The notes under the pieces were generated by a model. The model worked only from the letters and a program-made list of their open reading frames with translations, ran no database searches and was not told the DNA's origin. Positions 5,935 to 62,964 of a stretch of 64,000 bases of DNA are shown in pieces. The position numbers and the translations under genes are program-made. Every line of letters begins with the position of its first letter. The stretch's first letter is position 1. Origin of the DNA: a virus; IMG/VR virus record IMGVR_UViG_3300037882_001257, positions 1 through 64,000 of that record; one strand, given 5' to 3'.

Positions 5935-5935
5935 A

Positions 5936-7166: not shown

Positions 7167-7184
7167 AACTCAAATTACCTGGAT

Positions 7185-7237: not shown

Positions 7238-7250
7238 TATAGGTGCAAAA

Positions 7251-27050: not shown

Positions 27051-27483
27051 AAGTAGGCTCTTTCCAATAGCGTTTTAACACATTAGCGTGTTGTGTGGTT
27101 CTAGCAATTAACTCTACCTTATCGTTAAGATAAGCAGGGCTAATGTAATCATACATAAACTGTGTATATATCCACTCCAGGTTCCACACGTAGAAAAACT
27201 TTTTATGAGCGGACGGAATAGATAGCATCGTGTGGGTAGTTTCAATGTCGGTAGACACAAGTATGCCGTCGAAGCCCCGCAGTTGCGCTGTTTGCATCAT
27301 CGCAAAAGCTGTGGGTTCTGGAATAATGTCTAGCTCATTATAGAACACCGTTAATCGAGGCGCGTTAGGCAGTTTCAGCAGTTTATTGCCCTCTATGTTG
27401 AGATAGCAACCAAGCTGATTCATTCCTATTCGTTGGGTGATTATACCAAGAGTGTTTTGTGCTTTTGTGCTTCGGCTTTCCAT
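26983..27483 (-). CDS. hypothetical protein of the sugar-transfer cluster
   Basis: 166 residues, overlapping its neighbours by 43 and 68 bases. LTVFYNELDIIPEP, FDGILVSTDIETT and FYVWNLEWIYT suggest an alpha/beta Rossmann-like fragment, similar in flavour to the N-terminal half of GT-B enzymes but without a sugar-nucleotide site. It may pair with the adjacent 27441-28295 product. Not confidently assigned. Confidence 0.45.
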   Translation of the reverse strand: MESRSTKAQNTLGIITQRIGMNQLGCYLNIEGNKLLKLPNAPRLTVFYNELDIIPEPTAFAMMQTAQLRGFDGILVSTDIETTHTMLSIPSAHKKFFYVWNLEWIYTQFMYDYISPAYLNDKVELIARTTQHANVLKRYWKEPTYVIENFSATDLNAFIKKESGKL

Positions 27484-28295
27484 TGGCTCTCTTGTAGTGC
27501 GGCACCAAGTTCCATAACGCGGTCTAAGTAAGTATGTTCAGAAATAACAGCTTTGTGCGCTTTCTTTGTGATATTGCGACGGGCGCGCTCATTAGGAAGA
27601 AAATCATTCAGTAAAGAAAACAACTCTTTAGTGTTGTTGTAATGGGGGAATAGGGGGTTTGCGACATTACTCAATACGAAAGTTTTATGAGCTGCACACT
27701 CCAATAATAAGTCAGTATCGGAGTCCAAGTAAATTTTGGTACTTGCTAAGAAACTGGCAATTTTCCCAGGTTGGATAACTCCTAGATATGCAGGAGTTGG
27801 ATAGGACACGTCTCCCAAGATTTTCAATTTGTACATAAAGAGGTCGCGGCTCAATACGTTTACCATTTTAGGATTTGGAGACAACGACAAGTAACCAATA
27901 TCTGTTTCGTACTGGGCATCAAAAGTTCCTGGTGGGAACCTGAAGGTGTCTGCTGCCTTATGGAGAATCATCTTATTGTGGTCGATGTTGTTGAATATCA
28001 CCTTTGGTACTATGTCGTTGACCAGTACCAGCTTTACATACTGCTTGATACTGTCGGGGGCCTCAACGCCATAGATAATAACCGCTGGCTTGAATTCATT
28101 AATAGCTAAAATAGTGTCTTTTTGTATATCTTCTCTAGTAAGTATCACGTAGTCTGGTTTTTGCTCCTCGAACATATCGAACGTGGGCTTTCGTGTTTTA
28201 TCCCACAGTATGATATTCATGCCGGGCAACACAGATAACGCTGTGATGAGACCGGTCATGTTTCTATCTATTTTACTACTAACTGTGATGTTCAC
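27441..28295 (-). CDS. putative GT-B fold glycosyltransferase
   Basis: 284 residues from GTG 28295, chosen because AGGAAGG lies about 8 bases upstream; the longer frame begins inside the previous gene. The N-terminal half is a Rossmann-like domain (PGMNIILWD, PDYVILTRED, AVIIYGVEAP). The C-terminal half has IYLDSDTDLLLECAAHKTF then FVLSNVANPLFP, like the donor-binding half of GT-B enzymes with a final helix (KKAHKAVISEHTYLDRV). The family number and sugar cannot be read. Confidence 0.5.
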   Translation of the reverse strand: MNITVSSKIDRNMTGLITALSVLPGMNIILWDKTRKPTFDMFEEQKPDYVILTREDIQKDTILAINEFKPAVIIYGVEAPDSIKQYVKLVLVNDIVPKVIFNNIDHNKMILHKAADTFRFPPGTFDAQYETDIGYLSLSPNPKMVNVLSRDLFMYKLKILGDVSYPTPAYLGVIQPGKIASFLASTKIYLDSDTDLLLECAAHKTFVLSNVANPLFPHYNNTKELFSLLNDFLPNERARRNITKKAHKAVISEHTYLDRVMELGAALQESQWKAEAQKHKTLLV

Positions 28296-29022
28296 TTTTA
28301 AAGACCTTCCTAACGAATGCGTAGTCCTTGGAGCAGTCAATATCAAAAGCAAACATAGACGGGTCTGGAGAATAGACTCTAAATTTTCCGCCCTTGTCTA
28401 TAATCTTGTTGACAATCTCAAAACTAAATAGGTGGGCATTCTCTTTCTTCCATGTTATCTGCCGCAGTAGGTCGGCCTCTTTGCCCGTGAAGTATGCTAT
28501 CTGTGCCCACTTGTTCGGCAGGCCATAGAACATCTGCTCAACGTATGTTTTGCCACTGGTGAACCCGATTTCATTTTCCTTAAGGTGTTCAGACGTATTA
28601 GCTACTATACAAGATTCTCGGTCGAAAGGCAAATTCAGAGCAGTCTTGTTAAAAGCTAAATCGCCCTGGATAGTTATTATACGGTCTGTTGTCGCAGCGC
28701 GCAGACCTAGGCCGATACTTCTTGCTATATTTGTGTCTGCGTAACCTTCGTTTTCGACTTTAATGACCTCTTTAGGGGCGTGGTTCATAACCTTGTCTGA
28801 CTCGAAGCCTGTGACCAAGATAATTTCCACCACTGGAAACACCGAATGTATATGCTTGACTTGTTCATCTATAAGCAGGTTATCGCCTATTGGAGCCAAC
28901 GACCGCGCACCAAACGTGGTCATTCTATTGCCTGAGCCAGCAGCCAGTAGTATAACGCTGTACTTTTGGTTGACATGCGGCACCTTGATAAGTGACACGT
29001 TCTTTATAGCTTTGTTAGACAT
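28279..29022 (-). CDS. sugar-phosphate nucleotidyltransferase-like protein
   Basis: 247 residues. It opens with YSVILLAAGSGNRM (glycine-rich nucleotide loop), then APIGDNLLIDEQV, EIILVTGFE, ITIQGDLAFN (GD metal site) and FAFDIDCSKDY, the order expected for NTP-transferases that make NDP-sugars from sugar phosphates. The lysine usually found in the signature before L.PI is replaced (ARSLAPI). It probably supplies activated sugars to the surrounding glycosyltransferases. Confidence 0.75.
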   Translation of the reverse strand: MSNKAIKNVSLIKVPHVNQKYSVILLAAGSGNRMTTFGARSLAPIGDNLLIDEQVKHIHSVFPVVEIILVTGFESDKVMNHAPKEVIKVENEGYADTNIARSIGLGLRAATTDRIITIQGDLAFNKTALNLPFDRESCIVANTSEHLKENEIGFTSGKTYVEQMFYGLPNKWAQIAYFTGKEADLLRQITWKKENAHLFSFEIVNKIIDKGGKFRVYSPDPSMFAFDIDCSKDYAFVRKVFKSEHHS

Positions 29023-29558
29023 TCTCTCACAACCTTTATTTCTTCCGTAATATTGCCGTTGGTGTGTTCACTACTCAGTAACGGTATTGCTACGTGGTGC
29101 AATAGGTGCCTCATGCCGTACTGTAACAAGAATTGGAAGTGGTATAAAACCTTGAGTTCCTCATTAAACTTTATCAGTGGGTCCGGCTTGAATAGTAAAG
29201 GTGTATTGACAATTTTACCACTAGTAACTACGTCAAAGGACCAGTATGGATAGTATTGTATTATGTCTCCGGCAATATTATCGCAGTACACTCCCTTATT
29301 TAGATTATACTCAATAAGAGGTATTATGAGTTCCTCTAAAGAATGCTCACTGACGAAATCATCCTCTTTAGACAAGCATATCACGTAATCAGAGAATTCT
29401 ACATTCCTAAGCCCTTCATTGAATACCAACGGGGCGTTTTCATTCGAGTTATAGAGCATGTCATAGTTGGGATACTTTTGCTTAATAAATGACCCATTGG
29501 TAATGACAGTTACTCTGGGAAATTTTGCACTACTTTGGTCACCGGTATTGTCGGGCAT
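29004..29558 (-). CDS. GT-A-like glycosyltransferase fragment
   Basis: 184 residues. VTVITNGSF, LVFNEGLRNVEFSDYVICLSKEDDF match the second half of a GT2 catalytic domain (N.Gl..a..dyi.flD.DD), with KEDD in place of the DXD. HLLHHVAIPLLSSEHTNG forms the C-terminus. The N-terminal strand set is short, and the gene overlaps the upstream GT-like gene by 49 bases, so the two may be halves of one enzyme or may act together. Confidence 0.5.
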   Translation of the reverse strand: MPDNTGDQSSAKFPRVTVITNGSFIKQKYPNYDMLYNSNENAPLVFNEGLRNVEFSDYVICLSKEDDFVSEHSLEELIIPLIEYNLNKGVYCDNIAGDIIQYYPYWSFDVVTSGKIVNTPLLFKPDPLIKFNEELKVLYHFQFLLQYGMRHLLHHVAIPLLSSEHTNGNITEEIKVVRECLTKL

Positions 29559-30280
29559 CCTAATTCTTTCAATTTGACTGGTAGAGGAAATTGCTTGTTA
29601 CCCATGAAATAATCATACATAATTCGCGGTACAGTCCATCCGTTACCGGTGGAGTTTGGAGTGAGAGCTGTGAATTCTAAGAACTCATTGTTCACTTGTT
29701 TGTTTATATCCTCACCGAAGGTCTCTGGAACAATAAACCCCGCTTGGAATGTAGAGTAGAAGTTTGCATCCTTGTAAGCTGGCGAACTCACAATCAAATC
29801 TTCCCATAGGCACTGTTCTAGGTCGGGGTCGTCGATACGTTGTACCCGCCACGGAATAGGTATGTGCTGTAATAGAGTAGCTAGATGCCTCAAGCTATAC
29901 TTTGCCATCGGAGGGCGAACCACCCCAATGTACTTAGGTGGTAGTGTTTGGTTAACTAGCGAATCTACAGTTAGCTTGATAGAATCGTACTCGTCATTAT
30001 TACCAAAAACAATGTCTATGAAGCGGAGCGCAATTTCTTTCTGGATAAGCCCTAGCCGCTTTGGCAGGGATTTTTCTTCTGCATGAATCCAGTTCTTAGT
30101 GCGCTTAGACATACAGATACGGTCAGGAATCACATAAAACTCTTTTTCTTCGTCGTAGCATTCCATAATTGGTAAGCCCTTTGACCTGTACTTATCCAGT
30201 ATATTCAGGTCGCACCCAGTTTGGGTAATGTCTTCATAGGTTGCAAAGATACAGTCTTTACACGATGTAAAATTACGCAT
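29510..30280 (-). CDS. GT2-like protein with an N-terminal cysteine cluster
   Basis: 256 residues from ATG 30280 (an upstream frame extends to 30349 inside the previous gene). Residues 1-60 hold FTSCKDCIFATYE, QTGC, MEC and DRIC, five cysteines, a domain often fused to phage GT2 enzymes. Next comes IVFGNNDEYDSIKLTVDSL with QTLPPKYIGVV, the start of a GT-A fold. The catalytic DXD region is not obvious here, and the following gene carries a matching continuation. Confidence 0.5.
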   Translation of the reverse strand: MRNFTSCKDCIFATYEDITQTGCDLNILDKYRSKGLPIMECYDEEKEFYVIPDRICMSKRTKNWIHAEEKSLPKRLGLIQKEIALRFIDIVFGNNDEYDSIKLTVDSLVNQTLPPKYIGVVRPPMAKYSLRHLATLLQHIPIPWRVQRIDDPDLEQCLWEDLIVSSPAYKDANFYSTFQAGFIVPETFGEDINKQVNNEFLEFTALTPNSTGNGWTVPRIMYDYFMGNKQFPLPVKLKELGCPTIPVTKVVQNFPE

Positions 30281-30677
30281 GTTTAAATTTCTTGGCTGAT
30301 ATAACGTATTGTTGATGATAGATTTCGGAAGTGGCAACAGTAAAGCCACGACTATTCAATTGGTCAATTAGGGTACTCATACACGTAGCTGATTTATGAT
30401 TGTTGCTAAAAAGGGTCTGAATGGCTTTTTGGCTATTGATAACACCAAAGGTCAGGGAGTGCGCTATTTGATATATGTCTACACCAGCAAAGTGAACAGT
30501 GCCGCCATACCGAACCTTACTTAGTATAGTATCTAGTACGGTCATTTGAGATTCGTATTCTACATGGTCTAATAGGTCCCCAACTCTAATTTCTGAACAA
30601 GAGCCGTCCACAATGTCGGGAATTTGGTTAATGTCTATCTCTTGTTGACCCTCTAAACCCGTGATGTTGATTTTCAT
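30273..30677 (-). CDS. truncated methyltransferase-like protein
   Basis: 134 residues. VGDLLDHVEYESQMTVLD, ILSKVRYGGTVHFAGVD and a C-terminal GFTVATSEIYHQQYVISAKK resemble the second half of class I SAM-dependent methyltransferases (post-motif II 'GG.l.i...D' segment). The N-terminal SAM loop GxGxG is missing. It lies between glycosyltransferases and overlaps both neighbours. Probably a non-catalytic relic or a partner subunit. Confidence 0.45.
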   Translation of the reverse strand: MKINITGLEGQQEIDINQIPDIVDGSCSEIRVGDLLDHVEYESQMTVLDTILSKVRYGGTVHFAGVDIYQIAHSLTFGVINSQKAIQTLFSNNHKSATCMSTLIDQLNSRGFTVATSEIYHQQYVISAKKFKHA

Positions 30678-31546
30678 GCTAAGAATACCTCATATCTGTG
30701 CTTTTCTAAAATGGTGTTCCATGTATCGACAAATTCCTTGATAGGCCCGTGGTGAGTGTGGACGTACTCCAAGGCTTGCTTTTGCAAGAACGGAACTTCG
30801 TCTTTTATGCTATTCACAACCGCAGGAGCTTCCGCGACCGAATTGAAAAATCGCACGTTGTCTTTCAGGGTCTTGCTGAGGTAGTCTGTTCTATTACTAA
30901 CAATAGCGCAGCCACTTTTCATAGCGGTCACAAGACTATCAGATATGTGGTTAAGAGACGACAGATTGACGAATATCTTGGCTCGCGCAAACAGGTTGTA
31001 GTGTTCCTTGTCGTATAGCTGAGTAGACAGTCCAGGATTATTGCCGGAGATTACCAAGCTCGGTATTGCGGCTTGTAAGCTGCGTAGTAGATTGTAGTCC
31101 TCTGGCAAAAAGTGCCCATGCACCAATACTATGTCTTTTTCCTCTGCTGCATACGCTTCATCTGAATATGCTCTAGGTATAATAACAGAGTCGTTGATTA
31201 CGGATGTTAGTTCATTATCTGATATGGATGCCACTATTGATGGAATGGCCCTGTAATTCATTTCCTGTATCGCGCGGGCTGGTAGTGCCTCGTGAGACAC
31301 CATAATAGTCGGTAGATGCAATCCTAAGCCAAACTTTTTAACAAAGTCCTGATGTACGGGAGATTGATTAATCAGTAGATGGAAAGGCGTCGTATCTCGC
31401 CAGTTGTAGGTTGACGGGTCTATTAGATGAATATTATCAGGTACGTTTTTTGTGGTTGGATACCAGCCAGCAGGAGCGTAGCTGGCCGCCCCGTAAATGT
31501 TGTGGCCGGTTTTGGCTAAATCTAAGCAATAACACCCGTCATACAA
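30674..31546 (-). CDS. GT-B glycosyltransferase with an uncertain start
   Basis: 290 residues from TTG 31546, the only usual start available. The C-terminal half is a clear GT-B donor domain: DIVLVHGHFLPEDY, YNLFARAKIFVNLSSLNHISDSLVTAMKSGCAIVSN. The frame stays open upstream, and the residues there complete a normal first Rossmann strand (NILCYLYDG), but no ATG, GTG or further TTG precedes it. Translation may begin at a rare codon or arise by frameshift from the upstream glycosyltransferase. Confidence 0.6.
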   Translation of the reverse strand: MYDGCYCLDLAKTGHNIYGAASYAPAGWYPTTKNVPDNIHLIDPSTYNWRDTTPFHLLINQSPVHQDFVKKFGLGLHLPTIMVSHEALPARAIQEMNYRAIPSIVASISDNELTSVINDSVIIPRAYSDEAYAAEEKDIVLVHGHFLPEDYNLLRSLQAAIPSLVISGNNPGLSTQLYDKEHYNLFARAKIFVNLSSLNHISDSLVTAMKSGCAIVSNRTDYLSKTLKDNVRFFNSVAEAPAVVNSIKDEVPFLQKQALEYVHTHHGPIKEFVDTWNTILEKHRYEVFLA

Positions 31547-31605
31547 ATAGCAGAGTATATTGAGCGGGCTAGTGTGCTTAACACACTTATTTACCAGGTT
31601 TTTGA

Positions 31606-32757
31606 TTATACTAATGGTAGGCCATCCACTCTTCCATCAATGATGGATAAATGCTGGTTAATTAACGTAGCAATACTGTCGCAGGAAAAAGAGTCGAGGC
31701 GATGCTGTGCCTTCTCTCTGCGGGCTGTTCGCGCTTCGTCCGAGCTTTCATACGCTGCCCGCATCTGTCTTTGTAGGTCAATAATACTTGGTTCTCTCCA
31801 AGTTTCCCACGAAGTGTAAAGATTAGCAAGTGGCGGGTCTGGAACATAAACGGGAGTCTCGTGGCTTTCTACAAGAAAACCGCAGTCTCCTACCAAGTCG
31901 GCCATACCAGTATCATTGGTCACAATCACATCGTTACCCATGTACATAGCTTCCATGACCGGTCTTGACAGTGACTCACCCCGACTTGGAAGTACTAAGC
32001 AATCACCTAGTTTATGTAATCCAGCTAGTTCCTGTTGATTGAGAAAATCCGTAATGAGGAATTCTGATGCATACAGGTCTTCGTTCTGATACAGCCTCAT
32101 TTTGGATTTAATGTCTGATATTTGTTGCTGCATTACAACAGACAACTCTTCAGACGAATGCAACAACTTAGTTGTTTTAATAACGAGCTTCACTGGTTCA
32201 TTCTTGGTGAACTCTCGATGGAAAGCTATTATTAGCCCTTCAATGTTTTTTCTATGAATCATTTCACCTATGTAGTAGAATACATAAGAGTCGTCAATGT
32301 TTGGGATGTCAAGCGGCGCTGCGTCCTTAGATAGCCACGATGTATCTATAGGCATTGGAACAATTGAAATGCGTGTCTTAACCCCGCTCTTGCGTAGTAT
32401 GTTCTCTTCGGCTTTACTAGACACCCATATCTCATCCATTAGGTTGCAATAGCTGTGCCAATTAATCTGTGTCCATTTCGCAGATTCAAAATAGGCAATG
32501 CCGATGTTCCAACAGTCAGGCTGGCGACTAAAATAGTGAGGTAGGGCATTCTGAATAACAACATCTGGATATGTGTCTAATACATTGCTTTCAGCTTCGT
32601 ATAGTTCTGCCGGTAAAGTGGCTTCAATGTTGGCGGCCATAAACAGGGGCTTAGCAGATATATTGTGGCCGGTCTTTACTAAGGACTGTAGGTAACTCTG
32701 GCTAGATTTTCCCCAGCCGTCCCGCTGTCTAAAAGGCCCTATGAATACTATGTTCAT
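31606..32757 (-). CDS. GT4-type glycosyltransferase
   Basis: 383 residues, ATG 32757 overlapping the upstream stop by 4 bases. N-terminal IVFIGPFRQRDGWGKSSQSYLQSL and IGIAYFES are the acceptor domain. FYYIGEMIHRKNIEGLIIAF and CLVLPSRGESLSRPVMEAMYMGNDVIVTN are the GT4 donor domain, with an E-x7-E-like motif in the latter. It retains donor sugar from an NDP-sugar to an unknown acceptor. One of several GT-B enzymes in tandem. Confidence 0.8.
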   Translation of the reverse strand: MNIVFIGPFRQRDGWGKSSQSYLQSLVKTGHNISAKPLFMAANIEATLPAELYEAESNVLDTYPDVVIQNALPHYFSRQPDCWNIGIAYFESAKWTQINWHSYCNLMDEIWVSSKAEENILRKSGVKTRISIVPMPIDTSWLSKDAAPLDIPNIDDSYVFYYIGEMIHRKNIEGLIIAFHREFTKNEPVKLVIKTTKLLHSSEELSVVMQQQISDIKSKMRLYQNEDLYASEFLITDFLNQQELAGLHKLGDCLVLPSRGESLSRPVMEAMYMGNDVIVTNDTGMADLVGDCGFLVESHETPVYVPDPPLANLYTSWETWREPSIIDLQRQMRAAYESSDEARTARREKAQHRLDSFSCDSIATLINQHLSIIDGRVDGLPLV

Positions 32758-34391
32758 TTGTTCGCGTACTCAATATAGTCGGTGTGTGGAGGCTTCAAAA
32801 TACCACAGCGGATTTTCTCACACAATATCTTGTTCTCTGCGACAGCCCTAAATAGCTCAAAAATTTCCTGCGGGGTAACAGGTTGCATTCTGCCACCGTC
32901 AGTTACAAAACCCAAATTTAAATCCTTAGTTAAGTTGAGGGCTTCAACGCTATTAATACGATGAGGCTCACGAATAACCTCCATGTATAGCCAGTTTACA
33001 AAACCCTTAGTGGTGTTGATGCTGCCTGGGATTTTATTTGGAACACGATATAGCTCAGGCGGGGAATCCCAGCGACCTTGTCTATTTTCTAGGACCAAGC
33101 TATCAAAGTGTTGAATGAGCTTGTCCCCTGTCTTGTCCCAGTCGAAATACTTTTCGGCGGCCTTACGTGAATTTTTACTGTAGATTGACCGCTGTTCCTT
33201 GGTCATGTTGACAAACCTAGCAAATGTATCAGCACAGTAATCATCATCTGGTAAAGCTCGAATAGCACCGGTGCCGTGGTCGAAAAACATACGCTCTACC
33301 TTGAGCGGAAAACCCTTGGTCTTAGCCACTATATCAGCCATTCCACTATAGTCTACAGCCATCAGTGGAAGCCCACACGCCGCCGCCTCTAGTTGAGGCA
33401 TTCCAGCCCCCTCGCAGGTAGCGTATTGAATATATGCGTCAAACAGGTTGTACATATCCCCCATTTGTTCTTCCGTGTATCCATAAGATACCGTTGGTAG
33501 AACTCCGGTCGCAGCGTTGGAGTATGGTGAATATGTCTTAGAGTCTTGGAACTTAGAAGCGAACGGTAGACGGGTCTGCATACATACGTAGCTAAATAGA
33601 ACGCGGTCTTCTACTCCAAAGAACTTCAACCAATATGGAATATCCCATCCGGCTGTGTCTGGATAAGCAACGTGGCAATACAAATAGACATTATCACTGA
33701 TTTCAGGATATTTATCTAAGAAGAGACGTAGAGCGTGGAATAGGTCTGGATAGAGCTTTCTCATCTGATTTCTCATCACTGTCCCGATGATGATAGCGTC
33801 CTCGTTAAACCCGTGGGCTTTACGGTGTGCTTTCTTGTCTGCGACAGGTTTGAGAACATCAAGATTAACACCGGGAGAAGCAGACCCTATATACTTGATG
33901 GTGCCGTGGCTTTGCTTACGCATGATTTCGCCACCCCAGTCGGTATATGCAAATACTGAATCAGCAGTCTCAAACATTTCAATCCATTGCTCGCGTATGG
34001 GCGCTGAATCACAAGTAGGCATGATACTCCAATGGTAGTACTTACGCAGCGGAGAGATAGCCTCAAACGTGAAGTTGTAGGGGTCTCTTGGGTCAAAGAC
34101 TATATCGGCATGATAGTCTAGCAAAACTCTATTGAAACGCCACTCTCCAAAGTGGTTGTTCCTGTTTTGCATGAACTCTCGATAGCGCCCGTCACTCTCT
34201 TGGACGTTATTAGCATAGACTCTCCACGGGACAGGATTAGCTCTAACATGCTCTAGCGATGCACCAATAGCAAATTCAGCAATTTCAAACTTGTTGCTCT
34301 TGTACAGTCTCGATAGAATCTCTTTGCCGTAGGTGCCAAAGCCCGACAGGACAGATGAAGATTCATTAACGAATAATATCTTTTTCTTCAT
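32754..34391 (-). CDS. large GT-B (GT4-like) glycosyltransferase
   Basis: 545 residues from ATG 34391 (a longer frame starts within the sigma gene). ILFVNESSSVLSGFGTYGKEIL is the first Rossmann strand and glycine loop; HWSIMPTCDSAPI and SPGVNLDVLKPV lead into the donor domain, with YIQYATCEGAGMPQLEAAACGLPLMAV as the E-x7-E region. An extra 130-residue C-terminal region follows, longer than normal GT4 enzymes, and may bind the acceptor. Confidence 0.75.
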   Translation of the reverse strand: MKKKILFVNESSSVLSGFGTYGKEILSRLYKSNKFEIAEFAIGASLEHVRANPVPWRVYANNVQESDGRYREFMQNRNNHFGEWRFNRVLLDYHADIVFDPRDPYNFTFEAISPLRKYYHWSIMPTCDSAPIREQWIEMFETADSVFAYTDWGGEIMRKQSHGTIKYIGSASPGVNLDVLKPVADKKAHRKAHGFNEDAIIIGTVMRNQMRKLYPDLFHALRLFLDKYPEISDNVYLYCHVAYPDTAGWDIPYWLKFFGVEDRVLFSYVCMQTRLPFASKFQDSKTYSPYSNAATGVLPTVSYGYTEEQMGDMYNLFDAYIQYATCEGAGMPQLEAAACGLPLMAVDYSGMADIVAKTKGFPLKVERMFFDHGTGAIRALPDDDYCADTFARFVNMTKEQRSIYSKNSRKAAEKYFDWDKTGDKLIQHFDSLVLENRQGRWDSPPELYRVPNKIPGSINTTKGFVNWLYMEVIREPHRINSVEALNLTKDLNLGFVTDGGRMQPVTPQEIFELFRAVAENKILCEKIRCGILKPPHTDYIEYANK

Positions 34392-34839
34392 ATTGACCGT
34401 CTTGAATTTTGACAATAGCCGAATGGAAAACTTTATTGGCCCAAAACCGCGTCTTACCGAATGAGTCGCCTATAGCACTAAAGCTGTGGTTCGCTAACCT
34501 CATTTTGATAATCTGGCGCTCGGTATCTGTGAGAGAATTGGGTAGAGCATCTTCAATAGATTCGGCAGGGATATTAATCTCTTCTGCTACCGAATCTAGC
34601 GAACACATAACGTGCTTATTCTCTTTCGTTATGTAACGCGCTATCTCCCCGTGAATATAATACCATGCATAGGTACTCAATTTCCCTATGGATGGATTAT
34701 ACCTTCGTATAGCCTTTAACAAACCAATCCTACCTAATTGGACGTATTCATCCAACTCCGTAGGATTGCGAGGTTTGAAATTTTTTGCTATCTTAACAAC
34801 TAAACCAGTGTTAGATAGGATTAATTCCTGTTCAGTCAT
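34366..34839 (-). CDS. phage sigma70-family factor
   Basis: 157 residues. Residues 8-75 are sigma region 2 (LVVKIAKNF, LDEYVQLGRIGLLKAIRRYNPSIG, STYAWYYIHGEIARYI). Residues about 100-150 are region 4 (LTDTERQIIKMRL then a helix-turn-helix AIGDSFGKTRFWANKVF). Regions 1 and 3 are absent, as in small phage or alternative sigma factors. It overlaps ssb by one base and is driven by the promoter at 35316-35343. It likely redirects host RNA polymerase to phage late promoters. Confidence 0.85.
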   Translation of the reverse strand: MTEQELILSNTGLVVKIAKNFKPRNPTELDEYVQLGRIGLLKAIRRYNPSIGKLSTYAWYYIHGEIARYITKENKHVMCSLDSVAEEINIPAESIEDALPNSLTDTERQIIKMRLANHSFSAIGDSFGKTRFWANKVFHSAIVKIQDGQYEEKDIIR

Positions 34840-35270
34840 TAGAACGGGATTTCTTCGCCGCTCTTTGGTTCTTCTGCTGGCGCTTCAGCAGGGGCACTAT
34901 TTTCTTCCTCGCTTGGTGGTGAGTTGTCAGGCGACGGCTTACCGGACTTAGGACGCACTACATCGAAGCGTTCTACCGAAACGAACGTCTCATTACGCGG
35001 TGTTCCATCTTCTGCGGTCCACTTGTTATTCTTGAGTCTGCCATAGACCAAGACTCCGTCTCCCTTTGCAGCGCGAGCCACAATGCGTTCAGCTACACTG
35101 TTCCATGCTTCACATCGAACAAATGTTGCAACATTTTCCCATTCACCAGCCGCGTTTTTGCGGCCTTCGTTGATAGCTACCGTGAACTTTGTCAGAGGGC
35201 TTTTTTGCGCCCCAACGTGCTTCAATTCCGGGTCCGCTGTCAAATTTCCGTTTCCAAACCAACCTTGCAT
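34839..35270 (-). CDS. ssb: single-stranded DNA-binding protein
   Basis: 143 residues, ATG 35270 with GGAGG upstream. Residues 1-105 are the OB fold (GNGNLTADPELKHVG, TKFTVAINEGRKN, FVRCEAWNSVAERI, GVLVYGRLKNNKW). A disordered Pro/Glu linker leads to the acidic tip EEIPF, the site by which SSB recruits replication partners. It protects single-stranded DNA during replication and recombination. First gene of the operon that includes the sigma factor and the sugar-transfer cluster. Confidence 0.92.
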   Translation of the reverse strand: MQGWFGNGNLTADPELKHVGAQKSPLTKFTVAINEGRKNAAGEWENVATFVRCEAWNSVAERIVARAAKGDGVLVYGRLKNNKWTAEDGTPRNETFVSVERFDVVRPKSGKPSPDNSPPSEEENSAPAEAPAEEPKSGEEIPF

Positions 35271-35348: not shown

Positions 35349-37073
35349 TTAAAGCTGTAAAGCCGTATCGACCTGGAAAACCCCGTCCCGCCCGCGATTG
35401 CCGGTCAAGAGCAGGGTATTGCTTTCAATCATCAGGTGTTGAAACTCCTTCCATATTTCTGGAAAAATTACCACGGATTCTAGTACACCCGTAATGTCAC
35501 TTATTTGTAAGAAAGCCATCTCTTGTCCAGGGTTCTTGCCCTTTTTGGTTTTCACCCTACGTACAGAATCTAGGTCGCAGGCAATCCTAATAGATTCCGC
35601 AAAGAACCCGTCCATGTATGCTCTGATAGTGCAATTTGCCTTATCAGCGTCGGCACACGCTTCGACTGCTGTACATGAAATCGGTATGCCTAACAGGCCA
35701 GTCTCAATACTAGCAATCCACCGAATATCATCTGATAGCTTGTGTGGTGGGTTTTCCAGTGTAAATAGTAGGTTCTTAATCTTATCTAAGCGTGACGCAT
35801 TAAAACATATAGCATCTTTACCTGTGCCCTTAGCGACTATAAATTGCAGAACTTCTCTCAGGGTTTTCATCGGATACTTTGCCGACGTTCTATGTCCCTC
35901 TTCATCGTAGTTATACAGCAGCAATAGTCGCTCTAATTTCGGCAGTTCTGTCTTGTTGATTTCGCTAAATACTTTGTACTGAAAAAGCATCTCGGTGCGA
36001 GACACCCCCATATATGACAAAGCCCCCGATTTAATCATAGCCTCTATACAGGTCTTAGACACTTTAGGCGTTAGATAGAGCAAGAATTCCAGCCAAGTCC
36101 ACTCTTTACGAGATTTCCCCAGCACCTTTTCGACTGCGTTAGTACGTTGGACCATTTTATCATAGACCTTAACCCCCACACCTTTAATGTCTACAAACCC
36201 AAAGTAAATATCACCATCAATAATCTTGAAGTGATTATTCATCTTTCGATAGTCTGGTGCTAGTACATTGATTCTAGCGTTTTTGGCGTCGGACACTAAT
36301 TCCCTAATCTCTACTTGCGGCTTTTGCTTAGCCTTCGCATAAAACAAGTATGAACAATAGAATGTTCTTGGAAAGTGGGCCTTAGTATACGCTGATAAAT
36401 ATCCATTAATAGCATACGTCACAGCGTGCGATTTGTTAAAACTGTAACGCTGAGACTTTTCTATCCAGTCGAAGATTTGTTCTGCTTCTTCTAGGGTGAC
36501 AATCTGAGTTTTGATACAACCTTCTATAAACTCCTTTTTGACCTTTGCCATAAGAGCGGGCAATTTCTTACCCATCGCCTTGCGTAGAACGTCAGCCTGT
36601 TGTAGATTAAATCCTGCTATGTCTCTCGCAATTTGCATAGCCTGTTCTTGGTATATCATCTCACCGTAGGTAGGTGATAAGCTAGCTTCTAAAGCAGGAT
36701 GATAATACGTCACAGCCTCTTTATTATTCTTACGGTCAATGTAGTGTTGAGTCACACTTTTCTCTGGACCGTCACCATCCTTACGCAAAACTTCGCTGGA
36801 ACCGGGGCGAATAATAGCCGCCAACGCAGCCAACTGCTCTATATTCTCAGGTTGTAGTTTCGCAGCAAGAGACTGTCCTAGTCTGCTTTCAAGCTGAAAG
36901 ACACCCTTAGTCTTGCCAGAGGCGATGAGGGCCCATGTGCGGGGGCAATCCAGAGGAATTTCACTTACGTCGGGATTTAATAGGATGACCGGCTTTCCAT
37001 TAACCTCCCCTTTACGGTGAAATTCGCACCCGCACCCAGGGAATTTATATAGCTTTTCCTCGACCGTACTCAT
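35349..37073 (-). CDS. dnaE: DNA polymerase III alpha subunit, C-terminal half (split DnaE)
   Basis: 574 residues from ATG 37073 (M of MSTVEEKL). It begins with the segment leading to SGKTKGVFQLES, then the fingers (AAIIRPGSS, MIYQEQAMQIARDIAGF, ADVLRKAMGKK, RYSFNKSHAVTYA), the helix-hairpin-helix region and a C-terminal OB fold. The catalytic aspartates are missing; they lie in the separate gene at 37896-39878. No intein motif is seen at the start. The two halves together (about 1,230 residues) match a complete DnaE and probably assemble as two subunits. Confidence 0.88.
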   Translation of the reverse strand: MSTVEEKLYKFPGCGCEFHRKGEVNGKPVILLNPDVSEIPLDCPRTWALIASGKTKGVFQLESRLGQSLAAKLQPENIEQLAALAAIIRPGSSEVLRKDGDGPEKSVTQHYIDRKNNKEAVTYYHPALEASLSPTYGEMIYQEQAMQIARDIAGFNLQQADVLRKAMGKKLPALMAKVKKEFIEGCIKTQIVTLEEAEQIFDWIEKSQRYSFNKSHAVTYAINGYLSAYTKAHFPRTFYCSYLFYAKAKQKPQVEIRELVSDAKNARINVLAPDYRKMNNHFKIIDGDIYFGFVDIKGVGVKVYDKMVQRTNAVEKVLGKSRKEWTWLEFLLYLTPKVSKTCIEAMIKSGALSYMGVSRTEMLFQYKVFSEINKTELPKLERLLLLYNYDEEGHRTSAKYPMKTLREVLQFIVAKGTGKDAICFNASRLDKIKNLLFTLENPPHKLSDDIRWIASIETGLLGIPISCTAVEACADADKANCTIRAYMDGFFAESIRIACDLDSVRRVKTKKGKNPGQEMAFLQISDITGVLESVVIFPEIWKEFQHLMIESNTLLLTGNRGRDGVFQVDTALQL

Positions 37074-37737
37074 CTGATAGTTCTTTCCATGTAGTAACCT
37101 TAGAAGCACATTCTCTATGCAGCTTCATAAAGCGTATGATTAATTCTGCCTCGTCCCGAACGTCTTTAAGGGCATCGTGCCCGCCATCTGTTTCCATTTT
37201 GAAGAATTGCCGGAGCGTATCCATCTTATAGTTTACCGGACCAAAAGTAAGGCCCTCAAACCACAAGAATATCATATCCTTCAGGTCCACCTTATCACGA
37301 CCGTTAAACATGGTATTCACACCGTATTTAGCATTCAGTCTATCAGCTATAATAAGGTCGAAGTCTTTTAGGTTTACACCGGCAGCAATAGGGGCTGTGT
37401 GCATACTCTTAGTTGGATTGTGCTTATTAATGTAGTCTGAGAATAGCCCCCAGGCGAATCTAGTGTCAGCCCCTCTTTTCCAGGTAGCTATAACATCTTC
37501 CCTGGTGATGTTCATAACCCTGGCATGGAAGTTGATAGTATCACTAATCTGCTCAGTGATGTATTCCGGCTTCTCAATCCCAGGCGGCTTGACCCTAATG
37601 TTGAACTCACTATCAGGTATAATCTCCAGCTTGATAGGGTTGATTGCCACAGCCCCTATTTGCACGATGTTACAGATAGAGGGGTCTGTTGAGTCTGTTT
37701 CAAGGTCAAATACTACTATTGTTTTCTTGTTCGCCAT
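37045..37737 (-). CDS. DnaQ-type 3'-5' exonuclease (proofreading)
   Basis: 230 residues. IVVFDLETDSTDP (DxE, motif I), ITREDVI and GVNLKDFDLIIADRL (motif II), and GGHDALKDVRDEAELI (HxxxxxD, motif III) are the DEDDh exonuclease signature. It removes mismatched nucleotides for the polymerase. It sits between the two halves of the split DnaE and overlaps the C-half by 29 bases, so all are translated together. Confidence 0.88.
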   Translation of the reverse strand: MANKKTIVVFDLETDSTDPSICNIVQIGAVAINPIKLEIIPDSEFNIRVKPPGIEKPEYITEQISDTINFHARVMNITREDVIATWKRGADTRFAWGLFSDYINKHNPTKSMHTAPIAAGVNLKDFDLIIADRLNAKYGVNTMFNGRDKVDLKDMIFLWFEGLTFGPVNYKMDTLRQFFKMETDGGHDALKDVRDEAELIIRFMKLHRECASKVTTWKELSDEYGRGKAI

Positions 37738-37909
37738 ATGGTTCGACTAGCATTATATGCCCGCATAGTATTCCACTACCATCCACTTCATCCAGCGCGT
37801 TCCATTCGGCCTGACAGCACTTGTCTTTAAAAAACGGCTCGGTCTTACGATATACGCGCCCGCCATACAAAAACAACCCGTCAATAGGAAGCTCGCTAAA
37901 ACGAATCAT
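37706..37909 (-). CDS. small hypothetical protein within the polymerase operon
   Basis: 67 residues, ATG 37909 overlapping the DnaE N-half stop by 14 bases and the exonuclease start by 32. FSELPIDGLFLYGGRVYRK is a beta-structured pattern common in small phage proteins. No catalytic residues. It may be a polymerase accessory, but there is nothing to show this beyond location. Confidence 0.5.
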   Translation of the reverse strand: MIRFSELPIDGLFLYGGRVYRKTEPFFKDKCCQAEWNALDEVDGSGILCGHIMLVEPYGEQENNSSI

Positions 37910-39878
37910 AAAACGCCTCGTCTATAGACTCTCTTTCGTCTGCAATAATATCTCCGAATTCTAGTATTTGTTGCGCACCCATAATCTTGTCAAGAAGAGT
38001 CAGACCTAGAATATCCATTTTAACCATTCCTATAGCTTCCAGGTCATTCATTTCCATACCAGCTACAACCGTCTTTTTCTTGGGGTCGTAAACCATTGGA
38101 CAGCATTGAGATAGGGGTTCTTGAGAAATGATAACACCAGCAGCGTGCTTTGACTGGATAATCTTTGTGCCTTCCAGTCGCATAGCTTGCTCGAAGCGGT
38201 GTGCTAAAGGCCCTTGCAAAACCCCGTTGTCATTCATGGTACACCACTCAGCAAAGTCGCCAGCTTTCTCTTCCAGGGCAAATCTAATAAGAGAAGCTTC
38301 GCCGGTTTCTTCCTTCATATGTTGAAGTTCACCAGCTACCTTAGAAGGTTCCGGGATAAGCTTTGTAATGCGATTTATCTCGTCAAATGTCATATCCCCA
38401 TAAGCGGAGAATACATCCTTAAGAGCCGCTCTACCTTTCATGGTTTGCAGCGTAATCATTTGACAAACTTTATCATGTCCATACTGTTGCTTGATATAGT
38501 CAATCACAGCATCTCTCTTGGTAGCTGGAACGTCCATATCAATATCAGGCAGTGAAATATTTTCCGCCGTATTACGACCCGCATTGTAGAACCTTTCAAA
38601 TAACAAATCGTACTTAATAGGGTCTACGCTTGTAATGCCTGTGAGGCGCGATATGATGCTGCCGCCGCAACTGCCCCTAGAGCTACCCGCCAACCACCCG
38701 TTCTTTCTAATGAAATTAAGAATGTCTTGGCAAATGAGAAAATAACCCGATAGGTTAGCGCCCTCAACCACGTCTAATTCGTGCTTTACTCTGTCTCCAT
38801 AAAGCCCGTACTTGCTCTTATCAATTCTCTTGGCTAATCCACCCCATCCCTCTCGGCACAAGTATCTTAGGTACTCTTTAGGTTGCCCCTCATACGGAGC
38901 AGGACAAGCGAACGGCGGCAACTGCGGGTTCTTGGTAATCTCATAAGACTCAATCTTATCTGCTATTTCTAGCGTGTTATCTAGTTCTTCCTCGGTGTGC
39001 CCGAACCCTATCATTTCTTCTGCGGAAGGAATGTAGAATGCGTCACTGTTAAAGAACGAATTAAGTTGAAAGTCTGGTTTCTTGCCACGAGCTATCGTCA
39101 CGCCCATGCTGCGGCACAATAAGATAGCTTGGTCACTAGCTTGTTCTTGAAAGGCGTAGTGTGCATCGGGGGTGCAAATTACCGGAATACCAGTCAATTG
39201 TGATAGCTTAGTAATGCAATCTGACAATTGAATTTGTATGGGAATAATACGCTTAGCATACCTTTGAGATTCCAAATAGAAGTTTCCCTTGCCAAACAAA
39301 ACCTGTAGATAGTTGGCAAGAATGACCGCATCCTTTTCCCAGTTGGGCTTTATCTTATCATCCTCAACTATAGCGTTGGCGATATGAGAACCTAAGTGCC
39401 CACTGAAGCCTATGATAGAACCATCTAAGTAGGTGGCAAGCTGTTCCAGAGAGAGACGAGGGTGATAATAGAAGTGGTCAGGGTCATTAGACGCCGATGT
39501 AATCTGGATGAGCTGTTTCCATCCGTGATAACTTTTGCTTAAGACCGGTATATGAGCCAGCTTTTTGTTCTCTGGAACTTTTAGCTTGGCATCATCTTTA
39601 CTGATGTATAGCTCACAACCAATAATAGGTTTTAGTTTCGCAGGAGAAAAGGTCTCCATTGAACAAGTTAATGTAGGATGGTCATCCTTTTGCTTGCCGC
39701 ACTGACACACGTTTTTGATGGCTTTGTGGAACTGGACCACGCCTGAAACAGTGCCGTGGTCCGTAAGCGCACAACTCCCGGAACCTATCTCAACCGTTCT
39801 CGCAGCCATATGTTTAGGCTGAGAGAGTCCATCCAGCAAACTAAAATGGCTATGAGCATGTAGGGGAACGTATTTCAT
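37896..39878 (-). CDS. dnaE: DNA polymerase III alpha subunit, N-terminal half with catalytic palm
   Basis: 660 residues. The PHP domain is intact (LHAHSHFSLLDG, LTDHGTVSG, GCELYI, PDAHY). The palm has RGSCGGSIISRLTGIT, LPDIDMDV (two catalytic Asp near residue 444) and VKMDILGL (third Asp near 619). The protein ends 40 residues later, just before the segment GKTKGVFQLES that opens the next half at 35349-37073. It copies phage DNA together with that half. The ATG overlaps the upstream membrane-protein stop by 4 bases. Confidence 0.9.
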   Translation of the reverse strand: MKYVPLHAHSHFSLLDGLSQPKHMAARTVEIGSGSCALTDHGTVSGVVQFHKAIKNVCQCGKQKDDHPTLTCSMETFSPAKLKPIIGCELYISKDDAKLKVPENKKLAHIPVLSKSYHGWKQLIQITSASNDPDHFYYHPRLSLEQLATYLDGSIIGFSGHLGSHIANAIVEDDKIKPNWEKDAVILANYLQVLFGKGNFYLESQRYAKRIIPIQIQLSDCITKLSQLTGIPVICTPDAHYAFQEQASDQAILLCRSMGVTIARGKKPDFQLNSFFNSDAFYIPSAEEMIGFGHTEEELDNTLEIADKIESYEITKNPQLPPFACPAPYEGQPKEYLRYLCREGWGGLAKRIDKSKYGLYGDRVKHELDVVEGANLSGYFLICQDILNFIRKNGWLAGSSRGSCGGSIISRLTGITSVDPIKYDLLFERFYNAGRNTAENISLPDIDMDVPATKRDAVIDYIKQQYGHDKVCQMITLQTMKGRAALKDVFSAYGDMTFDEINRITKLIPEPSKVAGELQHMKEETGEASLIRFALEEKAGDFAEWCTMNDNGVLQGPLAHRFEQAMRLEGTKIIQSKHAAGVIISQEPLSQCCPMVYDPKKKTVVAGMEMNDLEAIGMVKMDILGLTLLDKIMGAQQILEFGDIIADERESIDEAFYDSF

Positions 39879-40435
39879 TCATAGTCTTTCTTTATGTTTG
39901 GCTGTAAACCCGGAACTCTTTGCCCTAGAACGCTTTCGTCTAATTGACCTTCCTCTCCCTTTGGTTTGGGTTTCTGTTCGCCTTCCTTTGGTGGTAGCTT
40001 CTTTTCCATGACAATAGCTTGCCCCTCACCGAGTCCCTTCATCATAGCTTGGACCTTTTTGTGGGTGTCTCTTGAGTAGGGGATTTTGTAGACGCGAGGC
40101 TCCCGCTTTTTAATGCCGAAACCGGCAATCGTAATTACATCCTTTTGCTGTACAGAAAGGTCTGAAGCGGTTAGATAGATTTGCCCTAAGCCGGTAGTTG
40201 GCCCTGGTTCCACTACAGAAGCGCCGAAGAACCTATACTTTTGTGGTAGTGGGTCATCTATGGGCCAGCCTTTAATTTCCTGGATGGAGAACCACACGAA
40301 CACACTCAAGAACGCTGTGGCCGCACACGCCCCTATCTTCAATAGCCAGTGAGTGCTGGACCCGTGGAAAATAAGCCACAGTAACAAAAGAATTACTGCG
40401 CTGATTGTGATTGGAATAATCATGGACTCAATCAT
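39875..40435 (-). CDS. two-helix membrane protein of the channel module
   Basis: 186 residues. Transmembrane helices at about 5-24 and 30-51, then a 135-residue soluble part with short strands (DVITIAGFGIKKREPRV) and a Pro/Lys/Glu-rich tail. ATGA overlaps join it to the MotB-like gene before it and the polymerase gene after it. No family recognised. Its coupling to the channel pair suggests a third subunit of the same complex. Confidence 0.6.
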   Translation of the reverse strand: MIESMIIPITISAVILLLLWLIFHGSSTHWLLKIGACAATAFLSVFVWFSIQEIKGWPIDDPLPQKYRFFGASVVEPGPTTGLGQIYLTASDLSVQQKDVITIAGFGIKKREPRVYKIPYSRDTHKKVQAMMKGLGEGQAIVMEKKLPPKEGEQKPKPKGEEGQLDESVLGQRVPGLQPNIKKDYE

Positions 40436-41052
40436 GGCTGTAGGCCCTCATTGATTGCTGTGAACGACTTAGGTACGGTCTTTGTTATCTCTGCTACGTT
40501 GCCAGCCCTGTCTAGTGTAAAGCGACAAACGTGCTTTTCGTCTTTCTCTGCTGATAGAATTAGTTTGTCCTCAAAGACAGTCCTTACACTAGGATTCAAC
40601 TGTTCAATTCTCACCTGCACCGGGGTATCGCCAAGGTGGAGTTTTTTAGCATAGAGCTGAACATTAAAGATGTACTCTCCCGGCAGGAACCCTCGTATGG
40701 TAAGAGTTTCCTTATTCTCTTTGAAAATCTTTCGTTCTCCATCGACAGTTATATATTGGTCGCTACTATCACCAATATCGTCCCTATCCAGGTGCATTAA
40801 GCCGGCGTCTTTCTTGCCAAACCACGCAATGTTATGAGCAGGGTCTTCCACGTAAGTATCGACATCTACATTGATGTTTTCCGGCCATTCAACCGTAATC
40901 ATGTAGTCTGCCTTGACCACTATCTTGCGGTCCTGTTCTATCTTCTTTTGAAAGCTGACAAACGCCATGACTACTAGAAAACATATCATCCAGTACATGC
41001 TAAGATTGGTCATAATATCGACCATTGCTGTGTCGTCGTCATTCTTATACAT
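40432..41052 (-). CDS. MotB/ExbD-like channel partner with a beta-rich periplasmic domain
   Basis: 206 residues, ATG 41052 behind GGAGG. Residues 10-34 are a single transmembrane helix with a leading aspartate (MVDIMTNLSMYWMICF, D12), aligning with the proton-binding Asp of MotB (ADFMT) and ExbD (IDVML). After a short linker, residues about 50-200 form a beta-rich domain (ITVEWPENINVDVDTYVEDP, IRGFLPGEYIFNVQLYAKK) that recalls DUF2135/YfaP-type folds. No OmpA-like peptidoglycan-binding motif is present. The Asp and helix are visible; ion flow is inferred. Confidence 0.65.
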   Translation of the reverse strand: MYKNDDDTAMVDIMTNLSMYWMICFLVVMAFVSFQKKIEQDRKIVVKADYMITVEWPENINVDVDTYVEDPAHNIAWFGKKDAGLMHLDRDDIGDSSDQYITVDGERKIFKENKETLTIRGFLPGEYIFNVQLYAKKLHLGDTPVQVRIEQLNPSVRTVFEDKLILSAEKDEKHVCRFTLDRAGNVAEITKTVPKSFTAINEGLQP

Positions 41053-41578
41053 CCTTTTCCTCCCTGTCTAGAATCTCACGGACTTTCAAAGCCTTTTCTA
41101 GATTAAAAGTTTGCAGAACGAGAAACATATTGATGACCAAACCGGCAATGGTAGTATACAGGGCAGTCGTAACGCCGACACCGGTTTCATTAAGAACGAG
41201 CCGCAGGCTGTCGGGGTTTGCAGTATCTAGCTTAGAGAATGCTTCTAAAGCCATCACGATGCCAATACCTGTTCCTAAGAACCCTAATTTAGATGCTATA
41301 CTAGCACCTAGCCAGCCCTCTTCTTTGGCGTTCTGGTAGATACTGACTAACTTAGACTTTTTATCTGTAATGTAATGCTTACCCATCGCATACAGATAAG
41401 TGATAACACCGAGTCTCAATGATAGTGCAGTACCACCAACGATAATGCCCCATGTTATAAACGTAGGGTCATTCTTGTTGATTAGGGTTGACAGTCCCGA
41501 CAAGTGCCCTACAATAAACACAGTTATCATACCAACAAATACCAACAGCCATCTCAAAAACACGATTGGGTTTTTCAT
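41045..41578 (-). CDS. MotA/TolQ/ExbB-family proton-channel protein
   Basis: 177 residues with four helices at about 6-27, 40-64, 97-115 and 133-156. The signature lies in the last two: KLGFLGTGIGIVMALEAF and GVGVTTALYTTIAGLVINM, the polar-threonine lines of MotA/ExbB pores. The cytoplasmic loop is only about 30 residues, far shorter than in MotA (about 295 residues in all) or ExbB (about 240). Starts right after the nuclease gene and overlaps the MotB-like gene by 8 bases, the usual order for such pairs. Family assignment is good; the phage role is unknown. Confidence 0.78.
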   Translation of the reverse strand: MKNPIVFLRWLLVFVGMITVFIVGHLSGLSTLINKNDPTFITWGIIVGGTALSLRLGVITYLYAMGKHYITDKKSKLVSIYQNAKEEGWLGASIASKLGFLGTGIGIVMALEAFSKLDTANPDSLRLVLNETGVGVTTALYTTIAGLVINMFLVLQTFNLEKALKVREILDREEKDV

Positions 41579-42640
41579 CTAAATACTCCCTGGGTTCCTA
41601 TACTCCGTAAAGTCGTATCCATCCTTCTTCATATGTTGAATAACCTTATCCATTGGTCTGTGCTTCAAAGCAAAGTGAATCTGGTCACACTGATTCATAA
41701 AATTACCATTGGAATACGTTAGCGGGACCACGTTGGTTCCCTCGAAGGTATTTTTATTAAGCGGGCAAAATGCACACGGTGACTTAAACAAGGGGACGTT
41801 TCTGTGAATGTCCTTGAATCGGAGAGGATTTGTAGTAGCCTTAATAATTTCAATCTTCTCTCGAATCTGTTGCAGGGTGCCTACTATATCGTTCTTTTCA
41901 AAAAACATGGTAAAAGGTCCACCGTCTTTGATGTAAAAAACGGTGACTACCAAGTGTTCTATTTCTGGAAACAATTTAAAAACAGCTAAGTGGTATAATC
42001 TCAACTGCAAATCAACTAGAAAATCATCGTAGGTCTTTTCCGGTCTACCTACTTTACCCCAATTCACACGCGAGCCAGTTTTCCAGTCTACAATCTCATA
42101 GACACCCTTAGATATTTCCCGTATGAAGTCTATGCTTCCCATTGCGGCAATAGTGCCGTCAAGTATCGTTCCATCTACTAACTCATAGCGATATTTAGCC
42201 CATTCTTCTGGCAGCGGAAAGTCGAACTTCCCTTCGGTTCTAATGATGTGGCTTTTTCTAGGGTCATAAGCTCCGTTCTTATAAGAGACTGCTTCATGGG
42301 CCCACTTCTTACAGTCTCTCTTGTCGGCCTTAGCCCACTTGTGATGTGAGAAAGCGGTGCTATAATAGTCATAGACTTCGTCAATCAAGGGGTCTAATTT
42401 TATCTTCTCGACCTTGGACGTTACCTCTCCAAAGACTTCATCTTCAAAGTGTGGCAGTCCGTCCTGTTGAGCTTTCTTAGCACTGGCAAGAATCTCCATC
42501 ACTTTGTGTACAATGGTGCCTTTGTCTGCGGCCTTATTAGAGGGCCCAGCCCATCCTAAAATGTACTCTCCAAACATTTTCATTTGGCACATTTCGTGAG
42601 TGCCATACATGGAGGAGCGTAAGTAAGTAATGGGAATCAT
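41579..42640 (-). CDS. Cas4/RecB-like PD-(D/E)XK nuclease with a probable Fe-S cluster
   Basis: 353 residues. KGTIVHKVMEIL (H45), GSIDFIRE (D171), YEIVDWKTG (D185, K187) and QLRLYHL (Q212, Y216) are motifs of the RecB/Cas4 nuclease group. Cysteines C18, C289, C292 and C318 are placed like the four ligands of the AddB/Cas4 iron-sulfur cluster. It likely resects or trims DNA ends during recombination and replication, next to primase and polymerase genes. Confidence 0.82.
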   Translation of the reverse strand: MIPITYLRSSMYGTHEMCQMKMFGEYILGWAGPSNKAADKGTIVHKVMEILASAKKAQQDGLPHFEDEVFGEVTSKVEKIKLDPLIDEVYDYYSTAFSHHKWAKADKRDCKKWAHEAVSYKNGAYDPRKSHIIRTEGKFDFPLPEEWAKYRYELVDGTILDGTIAAMGSIDFIREISKGVYEIVDWKTGSRVNWGKVGRPEKTYDDFLVDLQLRLYHLAVFKLFPEIEHLVVTVFYIKDGGPFTMFFEKNDIVGTLQQIREKIEIIKATTNPLRFKDIHRNVPLFKSPCAFCPLNKNTFEGTNVVPLTYSNGNFMNQCDQIHFALKHRPMDKVIQHMKKDGYDFTEYRNPGSI

Positions 42641-61726: not shown

Positions 61727-61754
61727 ATTATACACTCAAATTTTGCAGATACAA
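61727..61754 (-). promoter_or_regulatory. sigma70-type promoter of the second sigma factor
   Basis: TTGTAT (61749-61754), 16-base spacer, TATAAT (61727-61732). The -10 box includes the stop codon of the preceding glycosyltransferase. The predicted leader contains AGGAGA before the ATG at 61687. Confidence 0.7.
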
Positions 61755-62798: not shown

Positions 62799-62964
62799 AA
62801 TATGCCCTGGTAAAACAATAGCCAATAAACCAAGCGGAAAATAACAATATTGACCCTAAAAGAAAATGGGCATAATTAGGTATGATATATGATGTAAACC
62901 ATAATAAAATACCAACACCAACACTAACCAATCCGCCGATTACTGCTTTTATATGGTCGCTCAT
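62776..62964 (-). CDS. small two-helix membrane protein
   Basis: 62 residues. Two hydrophobic helices (AVIGGLVSVGVGILLWFTSY, HFLLGSILLFSAWFIGYCF) with short tails. Size and topology fit a holin or envelope peptide; function unknown. Confidence 0.6.
   Translation of the reverse strand: MSDHIKAVIGGLVSVGVGILLWFTSYIIPNYAHFLLGSILLFSAWFIGYCFTRAYYASNYQR

Follow-up and report, generated by a model that had tools for sequence, protein, structure and literature searches.

A candidate ion-driven inner-membrane motor or channel with a DUF2135-like periplasmic domain, encoded by three adjacent genes in phages and on bacterial chromosomes

Ion-driven motors of the 5:2 type power motility, the uptake of nutrients and the upkeep of the envelope, and Zorya uses one in defence against phages. 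The ExbBD-TonB and TolQR-TolA systems have a channel of the MotA_ExbB family with conserved helix threonines (Thr148 and Thr181 in Escherichia coli ExbB; PMC12215075), a partner with one helix, a pore aspartate and a short linker to a periplasmic domain, and an operon that holds a third membrane protein. The MotAB/PomAB stator has a four-helix A subunit, with a large torque-generating, FliG-facing loop between helices 2 and 3, and a B subunit in which an aspartate-bearing helix is followed by an OmpA-like peptidoglycan-binding domain. In Zorya, ZorA has a long cytoplasmic tail that is needed for defence (PMC11890865), and ZorB has a peptidoglycan-binding domain. The present analysis concerns three overlapping genes (the triad) in 64,000 nucleotides of viral DNA (the window), which are the first 64 kb of the 126,482-base IMG/VR virus record IMGVR_UViG_3300037882_001257. 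With the generic ion transporters (GIT; PMC12505986) the triad shares a non-flagellar relationship to MotAB, condensed cytoplasmic domains and lineage-specific add-on domains; the part of the GIT survey consulted mentions phages only for Zorya and names neither the triad nor a B subunit of DUF2135 type. In the open-licence literature, Ton, Tol, Mot and Zorya motors are covered by reviews and structures, but a search found no phage-encoded complex of this class described there.

The original prediction placed three open reading frames (ORFs) here, and their lengths and overlaps proved exact when the ORFs of the window were read again:

41045..41578, minus strand: predicted channel subunit of MotA/ExbB/TolQ type, 177 amino acids (PF01618, PDB profile matches, hydropathy, conservation)
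40432..41052, minus strand: predicted subunit of MotB/ExbD type, 206 amino acids (AlphaFold2 model, conservation of an aspartate, DUF2135 profile link)
39875..40435, minus strand: predicted third subunit, 186 amino acids (AlphaFold2 model, charge counts over the family, homology to the third genes of phage and chromosomal triads)

The MotA-like and MotB-like ORFs overlap by 8 bases and the MotB-like and third ORFs by 4 bases (ATGA); a strong Shine-Dalgarno sequence, AGGGAGGAAAAGG, lies ahead of the start of the MotB-like gene at 41052. The three proteins have four, one and two hydrophobic segments, respectively.

The MotA-like protein matches PF01618 (MotA_ExbB) with 28.7 bits against the Pfam cut-off of 22.9, and a profile of its family matches, in the PDB, MotA of Aquifex best (6e-8), followed by TolQ (9e-5), PomA (4e-4) and ZorA (0.001-0.006), which together bear out the MotA/ExbB-type identity proposed for the product of the gene at 41045. 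Its four predicted membrane helices, like its best PDB match, recall the MotAB/PomAB stator, whereas ExbB and TolQ have three helices. Four hydrophobic segments were also found by a crude scan in 95 of 142 relatives, most of the remainder having five. The loop between helices 2 and 3 is only 33 amino acids long in the window protein, in contrast to the large loop of the stator; its mean length is about 21 amino acids in phages versus 52 in cells, with on average 3.2 and 9.5 lysine or arginine residues, respectively, and by this charge the loop is assigned to the cytoplasm. There is no cytoplasmic tail, the protein ending about 20 amino acids past helix 4. Residues conserved in the family are L98-G99-x-x-G102-T103 in helix 3 and T143 and G146 in helix 4; of 70 sequences, at least 90% have T103 and every one has T143. 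By the PDB profile alignment, T103 and T143 would occupy the positions of the two conserved ExbB threonines.

The MotB-like protein consists of an acidic N-terminus, a single membrane helix with Asp12 and Asn16, a short linker and a beta-sandwich at approximately residues 50-191. In an AlphaFold2 model built from a 75-sequence alignment (predicted local distance difference test score, pLDDT, 86.8), a confident helix at residues 5-42 is followed by an all-beta region at 50-191; the position of Asp12 had been set beforehand as a test, and the model puts it inside the helix. Asp12 is present in 91 of 92 MotB-like ORFs checked, the lone exception being a wrong reading frame. The pairing of a MotA/ExbB-type with a MotB/ExbD-type protein bearing a pore aspartate thus agrees with the PF01618 match, the PDB profiles, the modelled helix and this conservation.

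The periplasmic domain of the MotB-like protein sets the triad apart from the described systems. The protein has no family match in Pfam, PHROG, NCBIfam or PADLOC and no sequence match in the PDB; an ExbD/TolR-type domain was found neither by these Pfam and PDB searches nor among the top 50 Foldseek matches in the PDB, and Pfam gave no match to an OmpA-like domain. Foldseek returned only borderline matches to the beta domain, DUF4425 and TTHA1873 ranking highest. Among 299 Pseudomonadota genomes searched by profile there were, besides full MotB-like proteins, two large proteins that match the beta domain only (7e-8 and 4e-7), and both carry VIT domains together with DUF2135 (PF09906, YfaP-type) over its cut-off in the matched region. 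Thirteen residues, including W56, D63, D65, R90, D91, E115, R120, G125 and Y127, are invariant across these two proteins and five motor proteins. Run directly, PF09906 gave no match in the window protein and a weak match in one relative (E 0.06). The domain, which had been predicted to be beta-rich and unlike the OmpA-like domain of MotB, is indeed all-beta in the model and is most likely, by these profile links, a DUF2135-type beta-sandwich, neither OmpA-like nor ExbD/TolR-like. DUF2135 occurs elsewhere in VIT architectures, whereas here it is fused to a MotB/ExbD-type membrane helix, and no separate DUF2135 gene was found in ten triad-bearing genomes. Because the linker after the helix is short, the domain should sit close to the membrane, and its conserved acidic residues would suit the binding of a metal or ligand.

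The third protein had been described as a two-helix membrane protein, and its two hydrophobic segments and AlphaFold2 model (of moderate confidence, pLDDT 67) agree on this. The model has helices at residues 2-25 and 30-55, a beta-beta-beta-alpha module at 93-134 and a disordered C-terminal tail, which is rich in proline, lysine and glutamate. TonB and TolA differ from this protein with its two helices, small beta-alpha module and no detectable TonB or TolA domain; searches of Pfam, the PDB, known folds and PADLOC gave no match. The short loop between the helices holds more lysine and arginine than the stretch past helix 2 (means of 1.7 versus 0.8 in phages and 2.9 versus 1.8 in cells), and because the loop is the more positive of the two, the C-terminal half is probably periplasmic. 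A C-terminal motif resembling FYxLPxPxLPPK was rejected as a general feature of the third protein, since only 12 of 69 phage proteins have it, against 49 of 74 from cells; a reading of this protein as a holin was set aside, the matches being sub-threshold and coming from a relative.

When viral contigs and phages were searched directly with the MotA-like protein alone, no matches were obtained, and the MotB-like protein served as the entry to other triads. Loci were picked via conserved MotB-like peptides, so that the counts describe a distribution and are not frequencies, except for those from the 299-genome sample; in environmental loci the gene calls are mechanical and the viral labels are those of IMG/VR. 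The search for the triad in other phage genomes proposed with the original prediction succeeded. A tblastn search of 50,697 phage records with the MotB-like protein matched 26, all from Rhizobium and Sinorhizobium phages (best E 4e-21). All eight of the matched records that were read out have a short MotA-like and a two-helix protein beside the MotB-like gene, the isolate phages 16-3 and RL38J1 among them, and a ninth, RHph_X2_25, has the same layout of gene sizes, its flanking proteins being known by size alone. In the phage records read, the triad genes are annotated as hypothetical or by number only (p038, p040 and p042 in phage 16-3); p036-p042 go unmentioned in the main text of the AP-16-3 paper. 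When loci retrieved with the MotB-like protein alone were scored with profiles of the three families, 136 of 151 held the complete trio, which is beyond chance for loci fetched by the similarity of one protein. In NV1.1.1, RHph_TM3_3_14B and Rhizobium esperanzae (locus L023), the MotA-like and MotB-like genes are separated by a gene for a homing-type endonuclease, yet all three triad genes stay open. Although none of the tools put a name to it, the triad is thus a real and widespread unit in phages and on bacterial chromosomes, occurring in rhizobial phages of approximately 60-170 kb, in viral contigs of up to 342 kb and, in one scan, at 80 chromosomal loci, mostly of Alphaproteobacteria. At one chromosomal locus (L085, 4372-6122), two MotB-like genes stand on either side of one MotA-like gene, a possible tandem duplication. 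Since every isolate relative infects rhizobia, an alphaproteobacterium is a plausible host of the window phage.

These features support, at the level of sequence, an ion-channel pair in the inner membrane, of the same kind as MotAB, ExbBD and TolQR, whose pore residues are retained. The favoured explanation is that the triad would form a small ion-driven inner-membrane motor of the 5:2 kind represented by MotAB, ExbBD, TolQR and ZorAB. Five copies of the MotA-like protein would ring two MotB-like helices; ions, most likely protons, would pass via Asp12 of the MotB-like protein and the threonines in helices 3 and 4 of the MotA-like protein; and the DUF2135-like beta-sandwich would pass the resulting movement on, in the periplasm, to the third protein, which would likewise have its second half there. 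Produced alongside the replication genes, the motor would act on the envelope of the infected cell, and the best single guess at its task is that it protects or remodels the envelope so that further phages are shut out or disarmed. We infer the 5:2 stoichiometry, the flow of ions (protons), the contact with the partner, the delivery of motion to the periplasm and the role in the envelope. The explanation as a whole, a motor of the 5:2 kind with periplasmic output that acts on the envelope of the infected cell, is given a probability of roughly one half. Its parts differ in strength: an ion-driven motor or channel is very likely and a periplasmic output is probable, while superinfection exclusion or envelope protection specifically is a tentative proposal. 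The retention of the trio (136 of 151 loci, even with endonuclease insertions), of Asp12 and of the threonines counts in favour of a motor. A flagellar-type rotor or a cytoplasmic effector of Zorya type is unlikely as the driven part, because the cytoplasmic loop has only about 30 amino acids and there is no tail. The triad resembles Zorya in the remote similarity of its A subunit and in the defence or phage setting of such motors, but three features rule out membership: the phage MotA-like protein lacks the ZorA tail; the AlphaFold2 model, Foldseek and the DUF2135 profile reveal no peptidoglycan-binding domain like that of ZorB; and no ZorC/D or ZorE effector genes lie directly beside the triad in the window, a constant helicase or nuclease effector being absent. 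The MotAB/PomAB stator differs likewise in its OmpA-like domain, and the triad has a third gene in addition.

The foremost rival explanation is that a cellular envelope motor was taken over as an auxiliary gene set, which would do in the infected cell the job of the chromosomal version (envelope order under stress, for example) with no anti-phage role. In two tree runs on MotB-like and MotA-like sequences (120 loci), the window fell in a clade of 26 members, all of them phages, with an ultrafast bootstrap (UFBoot) of 100. The trees also had a 16-3-type group, with UFBoot 98-100 for 21 to 19 members, and a group of mainly cellular loci. The phage-only reading of the window's clade was tested on the 299 Pseudomonadota genomes, which are an unselected sample. 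Fifteen match the MotB-like profile, comprising the query genome, the two with beta-domain-only matches in VIT proteins and 12 with full matches; 10 of these 12 further chromosomal triads group with the 26 phages (UFBoot 100), the order inside this clade being poorly supported (41-74 at the relevant inner nodes), and a phage-only origin was withdrawn. All three window proteins align with those of a chromosomal triad (MotB-like, 37% identity, 1e-39; third, 27%, 9e-13; MotA-like, 28%, 6e-6), and the surroundings of three such chromosomal triads are, by eye, ordinary genes (adenylosuccinate lyase, ABC transporter, CoA transferase). Chromosomes and phages have therefore shared the triad, either on more than one occasion or over a long time. 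Composition is uninformative on recent transfer, since the guanine-plus-cytosine content of the triad (44.5%) equals that of the window. The wide distribution of chromosomal triads, their place in the clade, their ordinary flanks and the alignments all speak for a motor carried over from cells; however, large separate phage groups with shorter MotA-like loops suggest long adaptation to phage life. This explanation is therefore placed second to envelope protection or superinfection exclusion and is considered unlikely, ahead of an ion leak and, last, the poisoning of host motors.

The position of the triad in the genome bears on its task. In the window it is flanked by the following features:

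41579..42640, minus strand: PD-(D/E)XK (RecB/Cas4-like) nuclease, upstream and outside the module (PF12705, 42.8 bits; phrog_69 exonuclease)
37896..39878, minus strand: N-terminal half of DNA polymerase III alpha (PHP, NTPase/palm), downstream (PF02811, PF07733)
35349-37109: second half of the polymerase (PF17657 finger, HHH_6)

The predicted site between a Cas4-like nuclease and the polymerase was confirmed by these domains, the polymerase being split in two ORFs, the first of which is overlapped by the third gene by 4 bases. A general seat beside replication genes, which had also been proposed, holds here and in several unrelated phages: the triads of RL38J1 and RHph_N34 are near topoisomerase, late sigma factor and SbcCD genes, that of locus L137 is by a clamp loader, and those of RHph_N3_19 and locus L021 are by polA and an exonuclease. 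It does not hold in sister phages, where the triad lies among glycosyltransferases, or in one relative (L132), where it is beside sugar-nucleotide genes (UDP-glucose dehydrogenase, epimerase). At the place equivalent to that of the window, the triad is missing from the syntenic viral contigs L008 and L010; L008 has a complete triad between two glycosyltransferase-like genes approximately 2 kb after dnaE, and the arrangement of ORF sizes in L107 matches these surroundings. Early or middle-type gene surroundings are common, with no single constant neighbour except in the 16-3-type group. In these temperate phages, 21 of 22 loci have, immediately upstream and in the same orientation, a gene for a probably secreted trypsin-like protease (PF13365; p036 in phage 16-3) with a hydrophobic, signal-like N-terminus, which is the best hint at a periplasmic task. 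Clustering of flanking ORFs in the 80 chromosomal loci gave genus-specific neighbours only, and a constant chromosomal partner gene was rejected.

Several observations weigh against an envelope motor. The protease is a rare neighbour elsewhere (4 of 26 loci in the window's phage group, 2 of 78 in cells), and the window's phage yielded none; the 80 chromosomal triads have no constant partner to name a function; PDB profile and fold searches found no relative with a tested function for the third protein; and a channel that is not a motor is possible, because the MotA-like loop is unusually short. In a regulated ion leak, the triad would bring down the membrane potential in the late phase of infection so as to time lysis or keep out the DNA of other phages, and the third protein would be the gate. 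Such a leak would suit the channel-type fold, the conserved pore aspartate and a small membrane partner of no recognized fold. Wherever its context was read, however, the triad lies outside lysis cassettes and sits with early or replication-type genes, a conserved periplasmic domain of 140 amino acids would be superfluous for a simple leak, and constitutive leaks are hardly conceivable for the chromosomal copies, so that this explanation is improbable. Counter-defence, in which the phage subunits would mix into or poison a 5:2 complex of the host such as ZorAB, TolQR or ExbBD, draws on the remote similarity of the MotA-like protein to ZorA models. It is very improbable and the least likely of the explanations: Asp12, the two channel threonines and the full trio of genes are kept, as in a working machine, the periplasmic domain has no match to ZorB, TolR or ExbD, and chromosomes carry the triad too.

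Other features of the phage and its relatives were recorded. Between the halves of DNA polymerase III alpha (35349-39878; PHP and NTPase half, 37896-39878; finger and HHH half, 35349-37109) are a 3'-5' exonuclease gene (37045-37737) and a small ORF, and contig L008 has the same split layout (5070-6932, 7114-7785, 7782-9425). In contig L010 (1-2025), an intein apparently sits in a DnaB-like helicase, at its Walker A region (...GARPK CQPLDAKILTPEGW ... TKNTGKT...). Glycosylation of phage DNA or of a surface is suggested by genes at 25352-35000 and 61728-62825 of the window, namely several for glycosyltransferases, one for a MobA-like nucleotidyltransferase and one for a sigma-70-type factor. The second half of the record (pieces L002 and L003, record positions 64001-104000) has approximately 34 tRNA genes, with none in the window, and a one-piece transfer-messenger RNA gene is found on the minus strand at 7984-8333 of piece L004, approximately 111984-112333 of the record (Rfam RF00023, 89.4 bits; ARAGORN tag AGDLWRDISARSPA). 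Phage 16-3 has its immX immunity genes (L014, 896-1330) approximately 4-5 kb upstream of the set of protease, MotA-like, MotB-like and third genes.

It is quite possible that tailed phages, very large ones included, encode their own ion-driven motor of 5:2 type, long kept and acting on the envelope of the infected cell, and that the same motor is a chromosomal machine of Proteobacteria. If so, it would be a viral rotary motor powered by ion flow instead of ATP, and the triad would be a further branch of these motors, having a periplasmic domain of its own and a novel third subunit, common to phages and chromosomes. Its presence in the well-studied phage 16-3 of Sinorhizobium meliloti, as p038, p040 and p042, would make it a testable machine.

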